DNA from: Desulfobacterales bacterium
GTDB taxonomy: Bacteria; Desulfobacterota; Desulfobacteria; Desulfobacterales; JAFDDL01
Direction: 5' to 3'
Assembly: GCA_034003325.1 (NCBI GenBank)
Contig: JAVEYW010000003.1
Span: 186,001-250,000, forward strand
Length of the DNA stretch: 64,000 nt
Below the pieces are notes generated by a model that was not told the origin of the DNA, did not search any database, and saw only the letters and a list, made by a program, of their open reading frames with translations. Below, in pieces: positions 48,529 to 60,996 of this stretch. Made by a program: the position numbers and the translations under genes. Each line of letters opens with the position of its first letter. The stretch's first letter is position 1.

Positions 48529-49173
48529 ATGGGCCTACAGGTAAGTGAAATATTTTACAGTATTCAAGGAGAGTCGCTCCATGCGGGACGCCCTTGTGTT
48601 TTTGTGCGCCTTTCAGGATGCAATTTGCGGTGCACATATTGCGACTCAACCTATGCGTACGATGAGGGACGCGAATTTTCGATTCCCGACATTATTGAAT
48701 CCGTCAGGCTTTTTTCGTGCCATCTGGTTGAAATAACGGGGGGAGAACCGTTGCTTCAGCCTGAAACCACCACTTTAATTAAGGCGCTGCTGAATGAGGG
48801 ATTTTCCGTTCTCCTTGAAACCAACGGCAGCTTCGATATCGGAAAAACGGATTCACGATGCGTCAGAATCATTGATATCAAATGCCCCTCTAGCGGAGAA
48901 AGCCAGTCGATCTGTTACAAAAATTTTGAACGGATAACCACTCAAGATCAATTTAAATTCGTCATTGCCGATCGGGCAGATTTCGATTTTGCCGTCAAAA
49001 CCGCGGGATTGATTCCCGAGACAATCCCGCGTGATCATCTCCTCTTTTCCCCTGTTTACGGTAAGTTGTCACCAAACCTACTGGCGGAGTGGATTTTGGC
49101 CGCACATTTACCGGTGCGTCTTCATCTTCAACTGCATAAAATCATTTGGCCCGATATTGAAAGGGGCGTGTAG
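48529..49173 (+). CDS. queE: 7-carboxy-7-deazaguanine synthase QueE
   Basis: Encodes 214 residues. The short radical SAM core is intact: [20 protein letters not shown], then the cluster motif CNLRCTYC, and [11 protein letters not shown]. QueE converts 6-carboxytetrahydropterin to 7-carboxy-7-deazaguanine in queuosine synthesis. queC follows after five bases. No preQ1 riboswitch was seen upstream. Confidence 0.94.
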
Positions 49174-49178
49174 ACCCT

Positions 49179-49865
49179 ATGAAAAAAGCAGTCGTTCTTT
49201 CAAGTGGCGGTATCGATTCCACCACCGTGATGGCCATCGCCCTTTCCGAGGGTTACGATGTTTCCGCCATCAGTTATGCATACGGTCAGCGGCATGCCTT
49301 TGAATTGCAAGCCGCCGAAAGCGTGGCTGAATTTTTCAAAATTAAAAACCGGATCGTCTTAAGTATCGACCTGAGCCGTTTTGGCGGATCTGCGCTTACG
49401 GATACTATCGATGTTCCCAAATCAGCTACAAATATCATAAAATCGAACGGTATTCCGGTGACCTATGTGCCCGCCCGCAATGCGGTATTTTTATCCTTGG
49501 CCCTGGCCTGGGCCGAAGTTCTGGGCGCCTATGACATTTTTATCGGTGTCAACGCCATTGATTATAGCGGATATCCGGATTGCCGGCCCGAATTCATACA
49601 AGCATTTGAACAAATGGCGAACCTTGCCACCCGTGCCGGTGTCGAAGGCCCGGATCGATTTCGAATTCAGGCGCCGTTGTTGCACATGAGCAAAGCCCAA
49701 ATCATTCAAAAGGGCATTGCGCTCGGCGTGGACTATTCACTGACCCACAGCTGCTATGACCCCTCTGATACCGGCCTCGCCTGCGACCGTTGCGACAGTT
49801 GCATTCTAAGGCGCCTGGGGTTTGAGGCTGCCGGCGTTAAAGATCCAACCCGTTATCATCGATAG
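49179..49865 (+). CDS. queC: 7-cyano-7-deazaguanine synthase QueC
   Basis: Encodes 228 residues. The PP-loop SSGGIDSTT is near residue 9, [18 protein letters not shown] and [17 protein letters not shown] follow, and the zinc site has four Cys in [16 protein letters not shown]. It makes preQ0 from the QueE product. queD and queF are not in the window. Confidence 0.95.
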
Positions 49866-49939
49866 TGGTTGACTGTTTTTCAGCCAAAGCGATAACCAGC
49901 CCCTGGCTGAAACCGGCGCTGGAGAAAAAATCTGAAATA

Positions 49940-50827
49940 ATGCCCTTCAATAAACAAACATCCGGTTTTATTCATTGGGTATGCCTTATGCCGGGAATCT
50001 GTGTCGTTCTCTTTTCGGGGGTCTTTTTCCCTGATACTGCTTGTGCCTTCGACTTACGGAAAATTGATCCCCGGCAGGCAGCCGAACGATTGAACCGGTT
50101 TTCAATCCTGGATGCAAGGCCCCAGAAAGAATGGCAAAAGGCACATCTGCCCGGCGCACGATCCTTTTCCTGGGAAAATTATACCCGAACGGATTCGGAC
50201 GGCGTCAAATACCGCATTTTCAAGCCCGAAGAACTGGGCAATGCGTTGGGCGCCCTGGGAATCAGCCATACCGATGCGGTTCTGGTCTATGGGGATGCCG
50301 ACAGCAGTTGGGGAGGGGAAGGCTGGCTGGTCTGGATGCTGGCCTGGCTGGGCCATCAGGGAGCCGTTTATTTTCTGGACGGCGGTATTCATCTTTGGCG
50401 GGACAGTGGGCAGCCCGTCACTTCGGATATAGGCAACTCGCACGGCCAGGTAACCTATCAGATTCATCCGCGCCCTGAAATGAACCGGACCCGTGACGAC
50501 ATCGCGTCTCAGCGGGGCCAAATCAACCTGATCGACACGCGCGGCTACTTAACCGAATACCTGCCCGGACATCTTCCCGGCGCCATCCATATTCCCTGGG
50601 GAAAATTTTTTAAGGGCCCGTATCGTCAAAGCTTAGCCCCCCACGAGTTGAGCGCACTGCTCGAAGAAAAGGGAGTTGACCTGCGAAAACCGGTGGTCTA
50701 CTATTGCACCGGCGGCATTCGTTCCGGCTTTTCCTGGCTGGTGCATTCACTCGGGACCTTACCGCCCGCCGTCAATTTTGAGGGGGGCACCGAGGAATGG
50801 GCGCGGAAACACCCGCTGGTTCGGTAA
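49940..50827 (+). CDS. Exported two-domain rhodanese (thiosulfate/3-mercaptopyruvate sulfurtransferase)
   Basis: Encodes 295 residues from ATG 49940 (an open GTG at 49865, touching the queC stop, is less likely). A signal peptide or anchor spans about residues 9-36 (FIHWVCLMPGICVVLFSG). Two rhodanese domains follow. The first lacks the active Cys (loop reads VYGDADSSWGG); the second is active (YYCTGGIRSG, Cys about residue 256). It should transfer sulfane sulfur in the periplasm. It sits 58 bp upstream of the radical SAM/ArsM/DUF5714 gene on the same strand, at the left edge of the arsenic cluster, which may point to a role in thiolated arsenic or sulfur supply. Confidence 0.8.
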   Translation: MPFNKQTSGFIHWVCLMPGICVVLFSGVFFPDTACAFDLRKIDPRQAAERLNRFSILDARPQKEWQKAHLPGARSFSWENYTRTDSDGVKYRIFKPEELGNALGALGISHTDAVLVYGDADSSWGGEGWLVWMLAWLGHQGAVYFLDGGIHLWRDSGQPVTSDIGNSHGQVTYQIHPRPEMNRTRDDIASQRGQINLIDTRGYLTEYLPGHLPGAIHIPWGKFFKGPYRQSLAPHELSALLEEKGVDLRKPVVYYCTGGIRSGFSWLVHSLGTLPPAVNFEGGTEEWARKHPLVR

Positions 50828-50885: not shown

Positions 50886-53800
50886 ATGAACAGCCAGACA
50901 AGCTTCCGGAAAGAATGCTGGCATCGGTTTGAATATCAACGCATGCCTGTCTATATCCGCCCGGAGGGGCCGGATTGGTTTATTCCCAACAGCCGGGGAG
51001 ACGAGGTGATTCGGCGTCTGGATTCAACAACGCTGTCCGGCGTCGATTCGGAGACCCTTCGGTTTTTAGCCGCATTGCCGGATGCCGAACCGATCAGTTA
51101 TACGGGACGTTCGAACTACTTGGCCCTCGACCGGCTAAGGGAACTCTGGTTTCACCTGACCAACCGGTGCAATCTATCCTGCCGTCACTGCCTGTTTGCA
51201 TCGTCTCCGAAACACAGCGCTGAGCTATGTTTGCCGCAGGTGCTGCGCATCGCTGCGGAAGCCCATCGAATGGGGGCCCGCCTGTTTGCCCTGACCGGTG
51301 GCGAGCCCTTTGTTCATATGGACATCGTGGCGATCATCCGCGGTCTGCTTCAGCTTCAGGACAGCCATGTCGTGGTGCTGACCAACGGGATGAATCTTCC
51401 GGATATAGTAAACCGCAACCAATTTGATTCGGACCGCTTTCATCTTCAGATCAGTGTGGACGGCGCGCCGGCGGCACACGACCACATTCGGGGAAAAGGC
51501 GCTTATTCTCAGTTGACGCGGAATCTGGACTGGTTGCGTCGGCAAAAGATTCCCTACACCCTTTCGATGAGCGTGAACCGGTGGAATGTAACGGACATGC
51601 CGGCGGTCGTTGACGCCGCGGCGGACAATGGCGCCGGCAATATTCACTTTATGTGGACCTTTGTCCGCGGCCGAGCCGACAAGAACCTGATCGTGCCGGT
51701 CGACGCCCTTTTTGAGTCACTGATGCAAGCGACGGCATCCGCCGAAGCGCGGCAAGTGTCCATTGACAATATCGAGTCTCTAAAAACGCAGATTTTCTCG
51801 CCGGCCGGGACCATGCATGACGGATCAAGCGGTGCATGGGAATCTTTGGCCGTGGGCCCGGACGGAAGGCTCTATCCATCGGCCGCGCTCGTCGGAATTC
51901 CCGAGCTGGCAACCGATATGTCGGCCGGCATTAAAACCGCCTGGCACAATAGCCCGGTGTTGAATTCAATTCGAAATGCCACCGCGGCAACCCTTTCTTC
52001 ACCGTTCCGGTTCCTGACCGGCGGGGGAGATATGGATCACAGCTATCTCCACCACCGGACCTTTATGGGTGATGATCCCTATCACCCGCTGTATGAAAAA
52101 ATCATTCTGTGGCTCCTGACCGAGGAAGGTAAAGGCCAACCCGATCATTCATCGCCGCAAATGCGGTTGCGCATGGGAGAGATTCTGGAAAGCTGCGGCA
52201 GTCACGGAAAGGTTTCCCTAACCCACTCCAATTGCCTGCTCGCAACCGCCGGTGAAACCAGTTTGACCGTCGTGAAACGCTTTTACAGCGATGCGGCCGG
52301 TGATAAAAAGGAAGATATTTTAAATCCGGTTTGCTATGACGAGGCGTTGATCGACCATATTCCCGAAGCGTTTCGGTTTCGGGGATACGGGTGCGGGAGC
52401 CCCGTGCTGGATGCGCAGATTCAACCGGGCGAGCGGGTTGTGGATCTGGGCTGCGGCGGCGGCGTCGAGTGCTTTATCGCCGCGCGGCTGTCCGGCAAAG
52501 ACGGCCGCGTGACCGGCGTCGACATGCTCGACCCCATGCTGACGCTGGCCGGAGAAGGACTTAACCAGGTAACCGAAAATCTCGGATTTTCAACCATCGA
52601 CTTTAGAAAAGGCTATCTTGAAGCTTTGCCCCTGGAAAATGAAAGCGCCGATGTGGTGCTCTCCAACTGTGTGATGAACCTTTCGGTTCATAAGCGAAAA
52701 GCCTACGCGGAGATTTTTCGAGTGCTGAAGCCGGGAGGCCGTCTGGTGATCTCGGATGTGGTCTGCGAGACCGAACCCGATGCCGCGATTCGAAACGATG
52801 AAACCCTGCGCGGAGAATGCATCGCAGGCGCAATGGCGCAGCACCATTTGATGGCGCTTCTTGCGGAGAGCGGCTTTATCGGTATTCGGCTCATAAAGCG
52901 GTTTCCCTATCGGGAGGTTCACGGGCACCCCTTCTTTTCACTGACCTATTCTGCGGAAAAGCCGAGGGCGTCGGCCTCGGTTTGCGTGATGTATCGCGGA
53001 CCGCTCCCTTATCTCACGGCGCATGACGGATCCCTGCTGATGCCGGGCCGGGTTCAAGCGCTATCCCGGGATGAAGCGGAACGCCTGGGCGATCAACTAT
53101 TTATCCTTGATGCCGCTGGTCATGTAACCAATATCGCCGCCCAACAGACGTGCGCCTGTTTTTTACCCCCTGAAGATCAGCGGAAAAAGGAAGTAACGCC
53201 GGCTGTGGTCTCGCTATTCCCGCGCCGGCCGGCCGGGTGCATGGTGTGCGGCGCGCCGATAACTTATCTACCCCGGGAAGAGCTGCGGCGATGCACCTAT
53301 TGCCAAGAAGAAATTTCCACGAACAGCCGCTGTGAAAAGGGCCACTTCGTCTGTGATGCCTGTCACCTGGCCGACGGAATGAAAGTAATCGAGCATGTTT
53401 GTTCCGTAACGCTCGAAACGGACATGGTTCAGCTTTTCAGGCAGATTCGACGGCATCCGGCAATGCCCGTAAACGGGCCGGAACACCACGCTCTCGTGCC
53501 CGGAATTATTCTCACCACCTATCGAAATCTCGGCGGCGACATTCCGCTTTCAACCATTGAAACCGGAATCAAACGCGGCGCGTCGGTGGCAGGGGGTTAC
53601 TGTGCGTTCATGGGCGTCTGCGGCGCAGCGGTAGGCGTCGGCATCGCTTTCAGTCTGATATTGGAAGCAACACCGCTAACCCCTGAAAAACGGCAAATCG
53701 TACAAAGCGCCGTCCGGAGCGTTCTCTCGAAGATTTCGGGTCTAAAGGCCGCCCGCTGCTGTCAGCGCGATTCGTGGCTCGCCCTGACAAGCGCCACTGT

Positions 53801-53963
53801 GTTGTCCAAGAAGTATTTGCCGATAGCCCTTGAGGCGAACCTGCCGATGAGCTGCGAGCAACAGCACTTGAATAAAGAATGCATGGGAAACGCCTGCCCG
53901 CTTTGCGGGCGACAGACAGAATCAGTCGGCAGAGGAATCTTTCATCAGCGCGTGGAATTATAA
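50886..53963 (+). CDS. PqqD-like / radical SAM / ArsM-like methyltransferase / DUF5714 fusion protein
   Basis: Encodes 1025 residues from ATG 50886 (AGGAG upstream); the frame extends to 50676 inside the rhodanese gene without family match. Order: PqqD-like lead-in (about 15-80); radical SAM core with CNLSCRHC (C95, C99, C102), FALTGGEPF and LQISVDGA; a SPASM-like backbone GPDGRLYPS (about 323) that has lost its cysteines; a class I methyltransferase with DLGCGGG (520-526) and VLKPGGRLVISDVV; then a Cys-rich DUF5714 module from C785 (CMVCG, CTYC, CEKGHFVCDACH) to CMGNACPLCG at the end. The methyltransferase keeps C503 (YGCGSP), C595 (SNCVMNL) and C645 (GECIAGA), the As(III)-binding trio of ArsM, with the ArsM spacing of 50 between the last two; C483 may be the fourth. 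Followed by arsR and arsenic export genes. It probably methylates arsenic and adds a radical-derived group; the product is unknown. Confidence 0.8.
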   Translation: MNSQTSFRKECWHRFEYQRMPVYIRPEGPDWFIPNSRGDEVIRRLDSTTLSGVDSETLRFLAALPDAEPISYTGRSNYLALDRLRELWFHLTNRCNLSCRHCLFASSPKHSAELCLPQVLRIAAEAHRMGARLFALTGGEPFVHMDIVAIIRGLLQLQDSHVVVLTNGMNLPDIVNRNQFDSDRFHLQISVDGAPAAHDHIRGKGAYSQLTRNLDWLRRQKIPYTLSMSVNRWNVTDMPAVVDAAADNGAGNIHFMWTFVRGRADKNLIVPVDALFESLMQATASAEARQVSIDNIESLKTQIFSPAGTMHDGSSGAWESLAVGPDGRLYPSAALVGIPELATDMSAGIKTAWHNSPVLNSIRNATAATLSSPFRFLTGGGDMDHSYLHHRTFMGDDPYHPLYEKIILWLLTEEGKGQPDHSSPQMRLRMGEILESCGSHGKVSLTHSNCLLATAGETSLTVVKRFYSDAAGDKKEDILNPVCYDEALIDHIPEAFRFRGYGCGSPVLDAQIQPGERVVDLGCGGGVECFIAARLSGKDGRVTGVDMLDPMLTLAGEGLNQVTENLGFSTIDFRKGYLEALPLENESADVVLSNCVMNLSVHKRKAYAEIFRVLKPGGRLVISDVVCETEPDAAIRNDETLRGECIAGAMAQHHLMALLAESGFIGIRLIKRFPYREVHGHPFFSLTYSAEKPRASASVCVMYRGPLPYLTAHDGSLLMPGRVQALSRDEAERLGDQLFILDAAGHVTNIAAQQTCACFLPPEDQRKKEVTPAVVSLFPRRPAGCMVCGAPITYLPREELRRCTYCQEEISTNSRCEKGHFVCDACHLADGMKVIEHVCSVTLETDMVQLFRQIRRHPAMPVNGPEHHALVPGIILTTYRNLGGDIPLSTIETGIKRGASVAGGYCAFMGVCGAAVGVGIAFSLILEATPLTPEKRQIVQSAVRSVLSKISGLKAARCCQRDSWLALTSATVLSKKYLPIALEANLPMSCEQQHLNKECMGNACPLCGRQTESVGRGIFHQRVEL

Positions 53964-54315: not shown

Positions 54316-54337
54316 AATGTATAAAAATGGAGGCACC

Positions 54338-54691
54338 ATGCGAAATTTTATCAAGGTGATGAAAGCCCTGTCCGATCCGAATCGGGTAAAGATTGTTAAA
54401 ATTCTTCAACGAAAAGTACTTTGCGTATGCGAAATCAAAGAGGCCCTCGGCCTTGCGCAATCATCCGCCAGCAAGCATCTTAAAATACTAGAAGAGGCGG
54501 GTCTTATTACCTATTCAAAAGATGGGTTATGGGTTAACTACCGGTTGACGGATGGGTCTCAAAGCCCTTATGCGGCCAACCTATTGGGAAACCTGAAACA
54601 TTGGCTTGAAGAGGATGCGGAGATCGCAAAACTGGTGGCACAATTGCCTGAAATACGCCGCGAACTGATTTGCTCGAGCTGTTCGGACTGA
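54338..54691 (+). CDS. arsR: ArsR family metalloregulator
   Basis: Encodes 117 residues from ATG 54338, preceded by GGAGG; an ATG 21 bases earlier would put that site inside the frame. The winged-helix core has LSDPNRVKIVKIL, the recognition helix LAQSSASKHLKILEEAGL and the DNA-contact wing. VLCVCEI gives the C-x-C pair in the position of the classical As(III)/Sb(III) site (ELCVCDL in E. coli ArsR). It likely represses the export genes and releases on arsenite. C-terminal CSSC adds two more thiols. Confidence 0.9.
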   Translation: MRNFIKVMKALSDPNRVKIVKILQRKVLCVCEIKEALGLAQSSASKHLKILEEAGLITYSKDGLWVNYRLTDGSQSPYAANLLGNLKHWLEEDAEIAKLVAQLPEIRRELICSSCSD

Positions 54692-54798: not shown

Positions 54799-55971
54799 AT
54801 GAAGGAGCGTACCAAACTTCTGCTGATTGTAGCGGTTTTCTTAGCCGCATATTACATTCCCTGGAGTCATCCTCTCATTCGCACATCCGGCCTCGAAGCG
54901 TTTATGATGCTGCAGGAATATGCCAGAGAGCATGTGTTGACCTGTCTCATCCCCGCCTTTTTTATCGCAGGTGCCATCGCGGTATTTGTCTCCCAGGCCT
55001 CGGTGCTCAAATATTTCGGGGCCAAGGCCGGCAAAATTCTTTCTTATTCCGTCGCCTCGGTATCCGGCACCATTCTGGCGGTATGCTCCTGCACGGTCTT
55101 GCCGCTGTTTGCAGGCATCTACACTCGGGGAGCGGGTATCGGGCCTGCGACCGCATTTTTGTATTCCGGACCCGCTATCAACGTGCTGGCCATCAGCCTG
55201 ACGGCCAAAATTCTGGGCTGGCAACTGGGGTTGGCCCGAGCGGTGGGAGCCGTGCTCTTTGCCGTTGTCACAGGCCTGTTGATGGCGTTTATTTTTCGTA
55301 AAGACGATGCCGCCCGCACGGCCGGCCAGATCTATGTTCCGGATTCGGATGGCAAACAGCGCACCCTGCTTCAAGACACCCTGTATATTCTGACGATGGT
55401 TCTTATTCTGGTGTTCGCGGCCTTTGCCAAGCCCGCCCCCGGGTCAACCGGATTGTGGCCCGCCATTTTCGCCGCCAAATGGTACATCACCATTTGCTTG
55501 CTCATCGTGCTCGGTTTCATGCTCAAGGCATGGTTCACCAGGGAGGAAGGTAAAAGCTGGGTTGAATCGACCTGGGGATTTATGAAACAGATCTTTCCGC
55601 TGTTGGGCGGCGGGGTGCTGGTAGCTGGCTTTCTGCTGGGTCGTCCCGGTCATCCCGCCTTGATCCCCGAGCATTGGGTTCAATCCCTTTTGGGTGGAAA
55701 TTCCCTCTGGGCCAATCTGTTCGCCTCGTTGGCAGGCGCCCTGATGTATTTTGCCACCCTGACCGAGGTTCCTATCCTTCAGGGGCTTCTCGGCGCCGGC
55801 ATGGGCAAGGGCCCGGCCCTGGCCCTGTTGCTGGCCGGTCCGGCGCTGAGTCTGCCGAATATGCTGGTAATCGGAAGCGTTATGGGCGCCAAAAAAACAA
55901 TAACTTTTTGCGCTATCATTGTAATTTTGTCCACCATCGCCGGAATGCTTTACGGTGCAATAGCAACTTAA
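54799..55971 (+). CDS. ArsP-type permease (organoarsenical or metal efflux)
   Basis: Encodes 390 residues with 9-10 predicted helices. The pfam ArsP_1 permease signatures are clear: an N-terminal half with IPAFFIAGAIAVFV, the AVCSCTVLPLFAGIY motif (C-x-C) and FLYSGPAINVLAISL, and a C-terminal repeat half with FATLTEVPILQGLLGAGM and LLAGPALSLPNML. Known ArsP members export trivalent methylated or aromatic arsenicals; others move different ions, so the substrate is inferred from context. It follows arsR and precedes DUF2703 and the thioredoxin, a standard order in anaerobes. Confidence 0.85.
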   Translation: MKERTKLLLIVAVFLAAYYIPWSHPLIRTSGLEAFMMLQEYAREHVLTCLIPAFFIAGAIAVFVSQASVLKYFGAKAGKILSYSVASVSGTILAVCSCTVLPLFAGIYTRGAGIGPATAFLYSGPAINVLAISLTAKILGWQLGLARAVGAVLFAVVTGLLMAFIFRKDDAARTAGQIYVPDSDGKQRTLLQDTLYILTMVLILVFAAFAKPAPGSTGLWPAIFAAKWYITICLLIVLGFMLKAWFTREEGKSWVESTWGFMKQIFPLLGGGVLVAGFLLGRPGHPALIPEHWVQSLLGGNSLWANLFASLAGALMYFATLTEVPILQGLLGAGMGKGPALALLLAGPALSLPNMLVIGSVMGAKKTITFCAIIVILSTIAGMLYGAIAT

Positions 55972-55991: not shown

Positions 55992-56387
55992 ATGAAGCAG
56001 CTTACCATTGAATGGCGCCATCTGGATAAAGACGGAAAAACCTGTGACCGCTGCTCAGATACCGGTGAAACGGTTCGCAACGCTCATGAAACGCTGGTTA
56101 AAGAGTTACACCCCAAAGGCTGGGAGGTGACATTGAAAGAGATCCTATTGACCGAGAATGAAATTCCGGAGTCGAATACCATTTTTTTCAACGGCATTCC
56201 CATCGAGCAGTTGTTACCCAATGCACGGAAATCTGAAAATTGCTGCACTTCGTGCGGCGAATTGCTGGGCTCACCCACCATGTGCCGAACAATCGAACGA
56301 TACGGCCAAACTTACGAGGCGATACCCGCTGCGTTGATTCTGGAAGCGGCCAACCTGTATATTCAAAAACATGAAGGAGGGATATAA
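55992..56387 (+). CDS. DUF2703 domain protein
   Basis: Encodes 131 residues from ATG 55992 (AGGGGA upstream). Cys pairs at residues 18 and 21 (KTCDRCSDTG) and a second cluster ENCCTSCGELLG ending in CRT mark the DUF2703 family, commonly next to ArsP-type permeases. The pattern suggests metal or metalloid binding with thiols. Its stop shares one base with the start of the thioredoxin gene (TAATG), so the two are translationally coupled. Function unknown. Confidence 0.8.
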   Translation: MKQLTIEWRHLDKDGKTCDRCSDTGETVRNAHETLVKELHPKGWEVTLKEILLTENEIPESNTIFFNGIPIEQLLPNARKSENCCTSCGELLGSPTMCRTIERYGQTYEAIPAALILEAANLYIQKHEGGI

Positions 56388-57399: not shown

Positions 57400-58647
57400 A
57401 TGGCGAAGGATAGAGAAACTTCGTGGAAATGGATTAGCGTCGTGTCAGTGGTGTGCCTGATAGGCGTTACCTTGGCCGCAAAAATCAGCGGTTATTGGGT
57501 GCTGACCGCTTTGCCCGTGGGCTTTCTTTTCGGGTTTTTTCTGGAAAAAGGGGATCTTTGCGGTGCCTCTGCCTTCAGCGAAATTCTTTTGCTCAAAGAC
57601 TGGAAAAAGATGCAGGGCATAGGGGTGGTGATTGTTGTCAGCATGCTCGGGTTTTCCTTGCTGGACGGTCTGGGGATGGTGAAGCTCAGCCCCAAACCTT
57701 TGCTATGGGCCAGTTCCATCATCGGCGGAGTGATTTTCGGCGTTGGGACAGTGTTGGCGGGGGCATGTGTTAGCGGCAGCCTTTTTAAAGTGGCCCAGGG
57801 CAACCTAAATTCAATGGCCGCGCTGGTGGCGATTCCGATCGGCGTCATGTGGGTGGAGCATGGTTCTCTTAAGGCGTTTCAGAACACGCTACAAACCTAT
57901 GTGGTTAAAAACACAGACGGCGGGCCAGTCACTTTTTTTTCATTGCTCCATCTGCCCTACTGGTCTCTATCCATCATTTTCGCCATTCTAACGATTTGCG
58001 CGGTCATTTTTTTCAGGCATAAAAATAGATTGCCCCTTCTGCAAAACCATTCATCGGGTACCAGCAAACTCAAAACCATCATGACTTCCCGTTGGCGGCC
58101 GTGGCAAGCGGGGATCGCCATCGGGCTTCTTGCTTGTTTGGCATACCTTTCGTCCGCCGCAAGCGGCCGTAACTATCCTCTCGGGGTAACCCATGGGGTG
58201 ATGCATGCCGAACTCTTACTGACGGATACGCCGCTTGAATACGTATATGCGCCTAAAAACAATTTCGTCCCCCCCGCCATTAACAGCGGAAAACAGGAAA
58301 TCGGTAAGTCCCCTAAAAAAGTCTCTCTCTGGTTGTTATTCGAGGTGTTCGCGATCGTCTTGGGCGCCTTTGTCAGTGCAAAATTGACGGGTCGGGCCAG
58401 GTTGTTACCAAAGCCGCCGCAACAGACGATAACCGCTTTTTTCGGAGGCCTTTTGGTCGGCGTCGGTGCGGCCATCGCGGGCGGGTGCATTGTCGGCAAC
58501 ATTATGAGCGGTGTTGCCCTTATGAGCGTCGGGCCCCTTATCTTTGCGGTGGTTGTCATCTTAACAAACTGGATAACCACTTATTTTTACCTCATGGGCG
58601 GAAGTCTTTCAGACATGGTTTGGATTCAGAACTATTTTAAAAAATAA
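57400..58647 (+). CDS. YeeE/YedE (TsuA-like) sulfur-compound transporter, two repeats
   Basis: Encodes 415 residues with about 10 membrane helices in two Sulf_transp repeats. The conserved thiols that line the path in this family are present: KGDLCGAS (residue about 55), LAGACVSGSLF (about 124) and IAGGCIVGNIMSG (about 366). Family members import thiosulfate or related sulfur compounds. Unusual context: placed between redox and arsenic export genes, it may supply sulfur to cluster or thiolation chemistry, or move a thioarsenical. The latter is conjecture. Confidence 0.83.
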   Translation: MAKDRETSWKWISVVSVVCLIGVTLAAKISGYWVLTALPVGFLFGFFLEKGDLCGASAFSEILLLKDWKKMQGIGVVIVVSMLGFSLLDGLGMVKLSPKPLLWASSIIGGVIFGVGTVLAGACVSGSLFKVAQGNLNSMAALVAIPIGVMWVEHGSLKAFQNTLQTYVVKNTDGGPVTFFSLLHLPYWSLSIIFAILTICAVIFFRHKNRLPLLQNHSSGTSKLKTIMTSRWRPWQAGIAIGLLACLAYLSSAASGRNYPLGVTHGVMHAELLLTDTPLEYVYAPKNNFVPPAINSGKQEIGKSPKKVSLWLLFEVFAIVLGAFVSAKLTGRARLLPKPPQQTITAFFGGLLVGVGAAIAGGCIVGNIMSGVALMSVGPLIFAVVVILTNWITTYFYLMGGSLSDMVWIQNYFKK

Positions 58648-58701
58648 GTCGTTCGAGGGATGTCGGCCAACATGCCGGCCGGAAAAATAGGACTGAGGGA
58701 C

Positions 58702-59796
58702 ATGAGTGATAATCGCCTTAAAAAAAAATTAAGCTTCTTAGACCGCTTTCTCACCCTATGGATTTTCTTGGCCATGTTCATCGGCGTGGGAGGGGGGTAT
58801 CTGGTTCCGGAAATCAAAAATTTCATCAACCGCTTTTCCGTCGGCACCACCAATATTCCGATCGCCGTGGGCTTGATTCTGATGATGTATCCGCCGCTTG
58901 CCAAGGTAAAATATGAAAAGATGGGGTTTGTATTTCGCGACATTAAAGTGCTGACGCTGTCCCTGGTGCAAAACTGGGTCATCGGGCCGGTTCTGATGTT
59001 CCTTTTGGCCATCGCTTTTTTATCCGGATACCCGGAATACATGGTGGGGTTGATTCTGATCGGGCTTGCGCGCTGCATCGCCATGGTGATCGTCTGGAAC
59101 GATCTGGCCATGGGGGACCGGGAGTACTGCGCGGGCTTGGTGGCTTTCAACTCCATTTTTCAGGTGCTCTTCTTTTCGGTCTACGCTTATATCTTTATCA
59201 CCGTGCTGCCCCGATGGATGGGGCTGGAAGGCATGGCGGTGAATATCTCCATCGGCCAGATCGCGGAAAGCGTCTTCATCTATTTGGGCATTCCCTTTAT
59301 CGCGGGGTTACTCTCCCGGATAATCGGCCTTAACACGGTGGGCGCCGAACGCTATGAAACAAAATTCATTCCCAAAATCAGCCCCATAACGCTGATCGCC
59401 TTGCTCTTCACCATTCTGGTGATGTTCTCCCTGAAAGGCGAATATATCGTTCAACTGCCCATGGATGTGGTGCGCGTGGCCGTTCCGCTGTGCATCTATT
59501 TTGTGATCATGTTTTTCGCCTCTTTCTGGTTGAGCATAAAAGCAAAGGCCACCTATGAGCAATCAACGACCTTGTCTTTTACCGCCGCATCGAATAACTT
59601 CGAACTGGCCATCGCCGTGGCGATAGCCGTCTTCGGCCTGAATTCAGGGCAGGCCTTTGCCGCCGTCATCGGTCCCCTGGTGGAAGTGCCGGTGCTCATC
59701 TCTCTGGTGAATGCCGCGCTCTGGTTCAAACGTAAATACTTTCCGTATGCGCTGGAAACACCGACCGGCGTTTGCCATGTGTCGTGCAAGCCCTAA
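58702..59796 (+). CDS. acr3: ACR3 family arsenite efflux transporter
   Basis: Encodes 364 residues from ATG 58702 (GAGGGA upstream). Ten helices are predicted, with the essential Cys in [13 protein letters not shown] and the conserved Glu in [12 protein letters not shown]. The N-terminal block [14 protein letters not shown] and [11 protein letters not shown] are ACR3 signatures. It expels As(OH)3 using the proton gradient. arsF and arsG follow on the same strand. A run of nine A encodes lysines near the start. Confidence 0.95.
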
Positions 59797-59839: not shown

Positions 59840-60298
59840 ATGAAAATTATTCAAAAACACCTGCCTTTTTGCAACCGGACGATTTTGTTCATGCTGATAT
59901 TCGTCATGCCGGCTTTTATGGCGGCATCGGCGGAAGGAGCCGAGACCCCATCCGCAACCCCCGCCCATTATTATACCGCCACCTACTTTCACGGTTCGTT
60001 TCGTTGCGGCACCTGTCAACGAATTGAAACCTTGTCTGAAAAAGCCATAACCAACCATTTCGCCCAAGAATTGAAATCCGGGGCGCTGGTTTGGCGGGCC
60101 GTCAATGTCGATGAACCGGAAAACCAACATTATGTCAAGGATTACAGTCTGTTCACCAAATCTCTGATCATTTCGGAAGTAAAGGACGGAAAGGAGATAC
60201 GGTGGAAAAACCTGGAAAAAGTCTGGAATTTTGTGAGAAATGAAGACAAATTCGACGAATATGTTTTATCCGAAGTGAAGGCATGGATGGGGCAATGA
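59840..60298 (+). CDS. arsF: ArsF-type protein (nitroaromatic-arsenical nitroreductase subunit)
   Basis: Encodes 152 residues. A signal peptide (about 1-35) precedes HGSFRCGTCQRIE, with C-x2-C in a thioredoxin-like fold, and the family segments WRAVNVDEPENQHYV and DGKEIRWKNLEKVW. In the arsEFG system ArsF and ArsE act together on nitro- and aromatic arsenicals before export by ArsG. Here arsG overlaps the arsF stop by 4 bp. The order acr3-arsF-arsG makes an arsenic function likely, though the substrate is inferred from the described system. Confidence 0.85.
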   Translation: MKIIQKHLPFCNRTILFMLIFVMPAFMAASAEGAETPSATPAHYYTATYFHGSFRCGTCQRIETLSEKAITNHFAQELKSGALVWRAVNVDEPENQHYVKDYSLFTKSLIISEVKDGKEIRWKNLEKVWNFVRNEDKFDEYVLSEVKAWMGQ

Positions 60299-60996
60299 CG
60301 ATGGGAATCGGCACGGCGGAAATTTTCTCCGTTATCTGGCTCGGCATTCTGACATCCATCAGCCCGTGCCCGCTGGCAACCAATATTGCCGCTACGAGCT
60401 ATATCGGCCAGCAGATCCATTCTCGTTTTTCAACGGTGATCGCGGCCACTGCCTATACCATCGGCCGCACCCTTTGCTATATGTTCATCAGCTTCCTGCT
60501 TGTCGCGGGCTTGATTTCCATACCGGGAGTGTCTAATTTTCTTCAAATGCACATGAACCGGATTCTGGGACCTTTTTTAATCATCGCCGGCCTGTTTATT
60601 CTCGATTTGATTTCGCTACGCCTGCCGAATGTCTCTTTCAGCATGGAGCGGCTTCAACAACTCGGCAAGAGCGGCTTTTTCGGCGCCGTTCTCATGGGAT
60701 TTTTGTTTGCGATGTCGTTTTGCCCGGTGTCTGCGGCGCTCTTTTTCGGAAGCGTGATTCCGCTGGCGCTCAAATGCCAGTCCCGCTTTTTTTTGCCGCT
60801 TCTTTACGGGGTCGGCACCGCCGCTCCGGTCATCGGATTCGCTTTTATCATGGCCTACAGCACCCGAATGGCAGGGTTGTTTTTCAACCGAATGGCCCCG
60901 GTGGAATTCTGGCTCCGCCGCATCACCGGCGGTCTTTTCATCCTGATCGGTGTGTATTTTTGTCTTAAATATATTTTTCGAATCATTCATTTTTAA
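60295..60996 (+). CDS. arsG: ArsG-type permease (CcdA/LysE-like, aromatic arsenical efflux)
   Basis: Encodes 233 residues from ATG 60295, overlapping the arsF stop (ATGA); ATG 60301 is an alternative. Six membrane helices; the motif SISPCPLATNIAATSYIG in the first helix and FAMSFCPVSAALFFGS in the fourth each hold a Cys-Pro pair as in the CcdA superfamily, which moves electrons or thiol-bound substrates. The combination with ArsF identifies the ArsG branch. It should export reduced aromatic or methylated arsenicals. Confidence 0.88.
   Translation: MTMGIGTAEIFSVIWLGILTSISPCPLATNIAATSYIGQQIHSRFSTVIAATAYTIGRTLCYMFISFLLVAGLISIPGVSNFLQMHMNRILGPFLIIAGLFILDLISLRLPNVSFSMERLQQLGKSGFFGAVLMGFLFAMSFCPVSAALFFGSVIPLALKCQSRFFLPLLYGVGTAAPVIGFAFIMAYSTRMAGLFFNRMAPVEFWLRRITGGLFILIGVYFCLKYIFRIIHF

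Follow-up and report, generated by a model that had tools for sequence, protein, structure and literature searches.

A radical SAM–ArsM–DUF5714 fusion protein as a candidate one-chain replacement for ArsM and ArsS in the arsenosugar pathway

A three-domain fusion protein of 1025 residues, encoded in a 64,000-nucleotide stretch of a Desulfobacterales genome (contig JAVEYW010000003.1, positions 186,001 to 250,000; the window), probably does in a single chain, as a partly convergent replacement, the work of ArsM plus ArsS, the two enzymes that direct arsenic into arsenosugar synthesis. Much of the organic arsenic in nature is in the form of arsenosugars, and to our knowledge the radical step of their synthesis is known for ArsS only. 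ArsS adenosylates arsenic in this synthesis (PMC12159101), and SsArsS acts with SsArsM in its first steps (PMC8552651). Genomic evidence gives good support to a link between the fusion and the arsenosugar pathway. We hold only tentatively the wider proposition that radical SAM enzymes evolved C–As bond formation a second time, independently, in a lineage of the SPASM group with the auxiliary clusters lost; this lineage would share its chain with ArsM and a DUF5714 module that hands on the metalloid, and would make an arsenosugar precursor or an undescribed C–As compound in Desulfobacterota and other phyla. A search of the open-access literature, with most subscription papers outside its reach, found no publication on the fusion or on DUF5714.

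Pfam identified Radical_SAM at residues 91-231 (2e-18), Methyltransf_31 at 513-662 (5e-29) and DUF5714 at 835-1006 (1e-56). The gene has an AGGAG ribosome-binding-like site immediately 5' of its ATG; its frame contains no in-frame TGA ahead of the stop codon and encodes no selenocysteine. Translation and Pfam recovered the following features that the original prediction, made by a model from the DNA letters, had described in this frame: its length, the C95-x3-C99-x2-C102 radical SAM motif, the class I methyltransferase motif DLGCGGG, the contexts of C503, C595 and C645, and the DUF5714 end. The fusion or its split halves occur in 24 of 297 genomes of the same phylum, at ~38-54% identity to the window protein, and further carriers include Eisenbacteria, Chitinivibrionales and Desulfocapsa bins as well as the isolate Desulfogranum japonicum DSM 18378 (L066). 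At two loci (L050 and L051) the radical SAM–ArsM part and the DUF5714 part are adjacent separate frames. Neither a chance joining nor an error of frame or assembly can account for the fusion, because ~30 loci in several phyla carry it, mostly as a single open frame, with a few split or cut by a contig end. Among 19 full-length aligned sequences, the radical SAM motif cysteines and C503/C595/C645 are invariant, and this set of motifs is therefore not due to chance; 15 cysteines between residues 758 and 1004 are likewise invariant. The fusion is a real, old and conserved family, not a one-off. The predicted full-chain model has a mean predicted local distance difference test score (pLDDT) of 71 and a predicted template modelling score of 0.42; residues 420-480 and 750-780 are too uncertain, and we therefore make no claim about the relative placement of the three active sites.

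C503, C595 and C645 align with the YGCGS, SNCV and GEC cysteines of solved ArsMs, so that all three As(III)-binding positions are filled, as had been predicted. The closest NCBIfam model is the arsenite methyltransferase NF008823, at 205.5 bits below its 263-bit cut-off; this model describes stand-alone ArsM, and the arsenosugar-cassette ArsMs of L104, L119 and L095 score under its cut-off too. In phmmer and Foldseek searches against the PDB, ArsM and human AS3MT ranked first, and the best 13 Foldseek rows were all ArsM or AS3MT. VIA-align superimposed the domain on 4fr0 with a Z score of 28.4 and a root-mean-square deviation of 1.7 over 213 residues, compared with a Z of ~21 for the best non-ArsM methyltransferase. 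In a maximum-likelihood tree the fusion methyltransferase domains form a single clade (100/100), which a 100/99 branch places with ArsS-adjacent ArsMs and apart from the short ArsMs beside arsR, arsP or acr3. By pattern search, the YRGP C-terminal module is shared by 23 of 30 fusions with 15 of 16 ArsS-adjacent ArsMs, and none of eight ars-operon ArsMs has it. By alignment, fold and tree, the methyltransferase domain is of the ArsM type and related to arsenosugar-cassette ArsMs rather than to non-arsenic families, the grouping on which the original prediction had staked itself. The conserved site and fold suggest that this domain would methylate As(III).

The radical SAM domain has a different history. 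Its core matches the NCBIfam ScmE/ScmF/PqqE models, and its structural neighbours are PqqE, SuiB and SkfB. Fusion frames score just ~50-60 bits against the ArsS model TIGR04167 (cut-off 300), and a 100/100 branch splits them from ArsS in the radical-domain tree; a relationship to ArsS was ruled out on both grounds. The nearest sequences in that tree are two-domain radical SAM–ArsM proteins from L059 and L070 (moderate support, 84/71) and stand-alone PqqD–radical SAM proteins (97/96). The SPASM auxiliary-cluster cysteines, retained in L059 and L070, are all replaced in the three-domain fusion, and Pfam detects SPASM in L070 but not in the window protein. Membership in the SPASM enzymes proper was rejected, the defining cluster cysteines being gone though the radical core is related. 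The PqqD-like label given earlier to the N-terminus is indirect, resting on homologues and not on a direct match: Pfam finds no PqqD (PF05402) in the window protein's own N-terminus, L059 and L070 match PF05402 above cut-off in the corresponding region, and the predicted model has a strand-strand-strand-helix pattern. These relationships point to a radical domain recruited separately from the SPASM group, with later loss of its auxiliary cluster cysteines. In the stepwise origin that they suggest, a PqqD–SPASM enzyme would have been joined to ArsM before the auxiliary clusters were lost and DUF5714 was gained. We read the radical domain of the fusion as probably catalytic, since its radical SAM motif, its GGEP and many residues of the active site do not vary among sequences just 38-54% identical.

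The distribution of the fusion links it to arsenosugars. ArsS exceeds its cut-off in 85 of the 297 genomes and the arsenosugar glycosyltransferase TIGR04282 in 134. All 24 fusion genomes contain TIGR04282 (Fisher P 9e-17 within ArsS-negative genomes) and none contains ArsS (6.9 expected, P 2e-4), and at the level of taxonomic families the 15 with the fusion and the 46 with ArsS have no overlap (P 2e-5), all P values being incompletely corrected for shared ancestry. None of six further carrier genomes has ArsS either; four of them have TIGR04282 above cut-off, one has a weak match to it and one has none.

Gene neighbourhoods point the same way. Genes that recur beside the fusion encode TIGR04282 and TIGR04283 glycosyltransferases (in L035 both score above cut-off, at 224.7 and 257.5 bits), a protein of the VTT/TVP38 type and a MerA-like oxidoreductase, and varying subsets of these also stand beside separate ArsS and ArsM in L104, L083 and L119. 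TIGR04282/TIGR04283 genes lie within 6 kilobases (kb) of the fusion in 8 of the 24 genomes, where 0.12 would be expected, and widening the distance to 30 kb raises this to 12 genomes; arsenosugar-cassette genes are found within ~8 kb at 14 of the 24 loci. Classical ars genes (arsR, arsP or acr3) occur within ~8 kb at just three loci, namely the window, G209 and G187, the last having arsR and a weak arsP-like match; loci with separate ArsS are likewise mostly without nearby acr3 or arsP. G209 is represented by two contig ends, which presumably adjoin each other and carry GT83-GT82-fusion followed by arsR, arsP, arsF-like, arsG-like, acr3, TVP38 and MerA-like genes. The arsenic neighbourhood expected by the original prediction is only partly borne out: it recurs as cassette genes and genome-wide TIGR04282, and seldom as classical ars genes.

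A working mechanism can be proposed. As(III) would be held on C503/C595/C645 of the ArsM domain and methylated with S-adenosylmethionine. The radical SAM domain would then cleave another S-adenosylmethionine and transfer 5'-deoxyadenosyl, or a fragment like it, to the methylated As(III), as ArsS does; this step is read by analogy, from the replacement of ArsS in the pathway. The TIGR04282 and TIGR04283 glycosyltransferases and partner redox proteins would complete the arsenosugar, as their co-occurrence suggests. The DUF5714 module probably captures, reduces or hands on thiol-bound arsenic inside the chain, and since arsenic would be passed within one chain, toxic trivalent intermediates would not be released. 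Methylation followed by radical addition in the same chain, as originally predicted, remains the best reading, while the "new organoarsenical route" once attached to it narrows, on the evidence, to a likely substitute for ArsM and ArsS in the arsenosugar pathway. DUF5714 itself (PF18978) is matched at 191.5 bits, with a gathering cut-off of 26.2. The C-terminus reaches 112 bits against the MbdU model NF045648, with a cut-off of 600, and is without the two selenocysteines of MbdU, and MbdU membership was rejected. A DUF5714-only model (mean pLDDT 83) gave no convincing match in the PDB (best Foldseek E 0.59, best Z 4.3); such poor matches of a predicted model indicate neither a new fold nor a relationship. 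In L044 (11971-12660) a second DUF5714 protein, MbdU-like at 313 bits, adjoins the fusion gene.

Several observations weigh against a replacement of ArsM and ArsS by the fusion. The distance of the radical domain from ArsS, in the tree and in its TIGR04167 score, means that the same reaction cannot be assumed. The arsenosugar label of TIGR04282 and TIGR04283 is the curators' inference. Ten of the 24 fusion loci have no cassette gene within 8 kb, and the carrier without TIGR04282 is the Chitinivibrionales bin. DUF5714 also occurs beside TrsS, DVU_1556-type methyltransferase and Mo-hydroxylase-like genes, in a cluster where no arsenic genes were seen, and is therefore not arsenic-specific. Finally, 31 genomes contain TIGR04282 but neither ArsS nor the fusion. 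Stand-alone PqqD–radical SAM or radical SAM–ArsM relatives partly account for these, being present in 7 of the 31 compared with 1 of 31 controls, a count that takes in the two-domain L059 form and one partial match. Stand-alone PqqD–SPASM radical SAM proteins of ~520 residues were seen in L151, L155, L157 and L159; in L155 (1326-4674) the gene has TIGR04283 on one side and TIGR04282 on the other, and next to it is the gene of an AhpD-like protein close to TIGR04169 (arsenosugar-associated peroxidase-like). These proteins are possibly a third form of the arsenosugar pathway.

Other activities were weighed against the same evidence. The radical domain might move the 3-amino-3-carboxypropyl group of S-adenosylmethionine, or another non-adenosyl fragment, to arsenic and so yield a different organoarsenical. 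There is precedent in ArsL, a radical SAM enzyme of another subfamily that transfers the aminocarboxypropyl group in arsinothricin synthesis (PMC12159101; PMC8552651) beside an ArsM (PMC8552651), and a radical domain that is not ArsS could give a different radical product. We nevertheless consider this unlikely: the cassette partners are the arsenosugar ones (TIGR04282, TIGR04283, TVP38, MerA-like), no genome with the fusion has ArsS, and ArsL is not among the best 25 of the 127 NCBIfam matches of the fusion, no separate ArsL test having been made. About as improbable is a role with other soft elements (selenium, antimony, tellurium or mercury), arsenic being one of many substrates. The labelling of DUF5714/MbdU relatives as metal-binding selenoproteins, their position near Mo-hydroxylase and TrsS genes and the few fusion loci with classical ars genes would fit it, but the ArsM site is complete, the methyltransferase groups with ArsS-adjacent ArsMs, and the window and G209 are clear ars loci.

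The PqqD/RRE domains of homologues, together with the fold likeness to the peptide maturases SkfB, PqqE and SuiB, could instead speak for a radical SAM enzyme that modifies a peptide or lipid through a PqqD-type recognition domain, with ArsM fused for a reason other than C–As bond formation. We give this little credence, as the SPASM cluster cysteines typical of such maturases are gone from the three-domain form and no recurrent small-peptide gene was found among the clustered neighbours, a set limited to proteins of 80 residues or more. Least probable, and to us very doubtful, is detoxification only, in which the radical domain coupled to ArsM would be inactive or regulatory and the Cys-rich part would serve as a sink for arsenic; loss of the SPASM clusters and the ars resistance genes adjoining the window fusion are compatible with it, but the invariant catalytic residues of the radical domain argue for catalysis.

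Compared with known systems, the fusion is closest to ArsS plus ArsM (TIGR04167 and the ArsS-linked ArsM) in the expected pair of activities, in the partner genes TIGR04282/TIGR04283, TVP38 and MerA-like, and in the related ArsM domain with its YRGP C-terminal module; the shared TIGR04282/TIGR04283 partners denote a shared pathway, not ArsS membership. It differs in being one chain rather than two, in its SPASM-group radical domain, in the additional PqqD-like and DUF5714 parts, and in never having been seen together with ArsS. ArsL plus ArsM (arsQML, arsinothricin) likewise pairs radical SAM with ArsM in an ars context (PMC8552651), but as separate proteins with aminocarboxypropyl chemistry and different partner genes. 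The nearest relatives of the fusion radical domain are the L059/L070 and L151/L155/L157/L159 proteins, and L070, L151 and L155 lie near TIGR04282. Unlike the fusion, L059 and L070 keep the SPASM cysteines, and the stand-alone proteins have no methyltransferase; L059 ends without DUF5714, and L070 is cut by a contig end. The selenoprotein fusions NF041537 (ArsM-AhpD) and NF041536 (ArsM-DUF2284) also join ArsM to a redox or metal-binding module, but they have selenocysteine and no radical SAM domain, the reverse of the fusion. In the L055 cluster of TrsS, DVU_1556 methyltransferase and MbdU-type genes, radical SAM, methyltransferase and DUF5714 proteins are encoded side by side; that cluster differs in its Tes-like TrsS, in a methyltransferase other than ArsM, and in the Mo-hydroxylase-like and CoA-ligase genes that it carries. 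L056 resembles L055 (4564-17805) in clustering TrsS, DUF5714/MbdU-like, DVU_1553-type CoA ligase, DVU_1556-type methyltransferase and Mo-hydroxylase-like genes.

If the fusion does replace ArsM and ArsS, the arsenosugar pathway extends to many bacteria without ArsS, radical SAM C–As bond formation arose more than once, and DUF5714, a family of unknown function, gains a testable role. Surveys built on two separate genes, one for ArsM and one for ArsS, may overlook the fusion, and arsenic-cycling potential would then be read differently from genomes.

Table 1. Features of the fusion gene and its surroundings (window coordinates)
Feature	Position	Strand	Basis or remark
Rhodanese-family protein (two matched stretches)	49865..50827	+	family match; also beside fusion in L031, L040
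Three-domain fusion protein, 1025 aa	50886..53963	+	translated frame, domain matches, conservation
PqqD-like (RRE-type) N-terminal domain, residues ~12-65	50919..51080	+	homologous N-termini of L059/L070; model
Radical SAM domain, residues 85-290; C95/C99/C102, GGEP 138-141	51138..51755	+	Pfam, invariant residues, fold, tree
SPASM-derived region without cluster cysteines, residues 291-420	51756..52145	+	alignment with L059/L070
Linker, invariant C437, H447, N449, C450; possible thiol site	52146..52301	+	conservation; model confidence low here
ArsM-type methyltransferase domain, residues 473-692	52302..52961	+	NCBIfam, Foldseek, structural alignment
C503 (YGCGSP), ArsM Cys72 equivalent	52392..52394	+	alignment to solved ArsMs
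C595 (SNCVM), ArsM Cys174 equivalent	52668..52670	+	alignment to solved ArsMs
C645 (GECIAG), ArsM Cys224 equivalent	52818..52820	+	alignment to solved ArsMs
C-terminal ArsM module, Y-R-G-P motif, residues ~693-755	52962..53150	+	pattern; also in ArsS-adjacent ArsMs
Cys-rich module with DUF5714: zinc-ribbon-like CxxC...CxxC, then CxGCAxxG-like helical part	53211..53915	+	Pfam, conservation, model
ArsR-family regulator	54317..54691	+	family match
ArsP/SaoE-like permease	54799..55971	+	below NCBIfam cut-offs; kept beside DUF5714 end of fusion in L060
DUF2703 protein	55992..56387	+	family match
Acr3 arsenite efflux transporter	58660..59796	+	TIGR00832, 454.6 bits, cut-off 283
ArsF-family protein	59840..60298	+	NF040494
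ArsG-family permease	60283..60996	+	NF040495, 257 bits, cut-off 200

The arsenic locus claimed at the outset is borne out in the window by ArsR, Acr3 (454 bits against 283), ArsF and ArsG near the fusion (Table 1). The rhodanese gene lies 58 bases 5' of the fusion gene and arsR 353 bases 3' of it, and with this spacing the fusion may therefore not share the ars-gene transcript. A TsuA/YeeE-like thiosulfate transporter, below cut-off, lies within the run of ars genes (57400-58647); it and the upstream rhodanese make a link to thio-arsenic chemistry possible. By sequence reading alone, queE- and queC-like genes (48529-49865) lie directly 5' of the rhodanese and fusion genes. Elsewhere, the Nitrospirae contig of L070 (2521-11980) carries, besides its radical SAM(SPASM)–ArsM fusion, genes for TIGR04282, for a GT2 enzyme and for an uncharacterised protein, c13, which is also a neighbour of the three-domain fusion at L031 and L040. 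In arsenosugar cassettes a PiT-type phosphate-transporter-like gene is repeatedly found next to ArsM/ArsS genes (L054:10414-11550, L083:12141-13316, L141:1192-2307).

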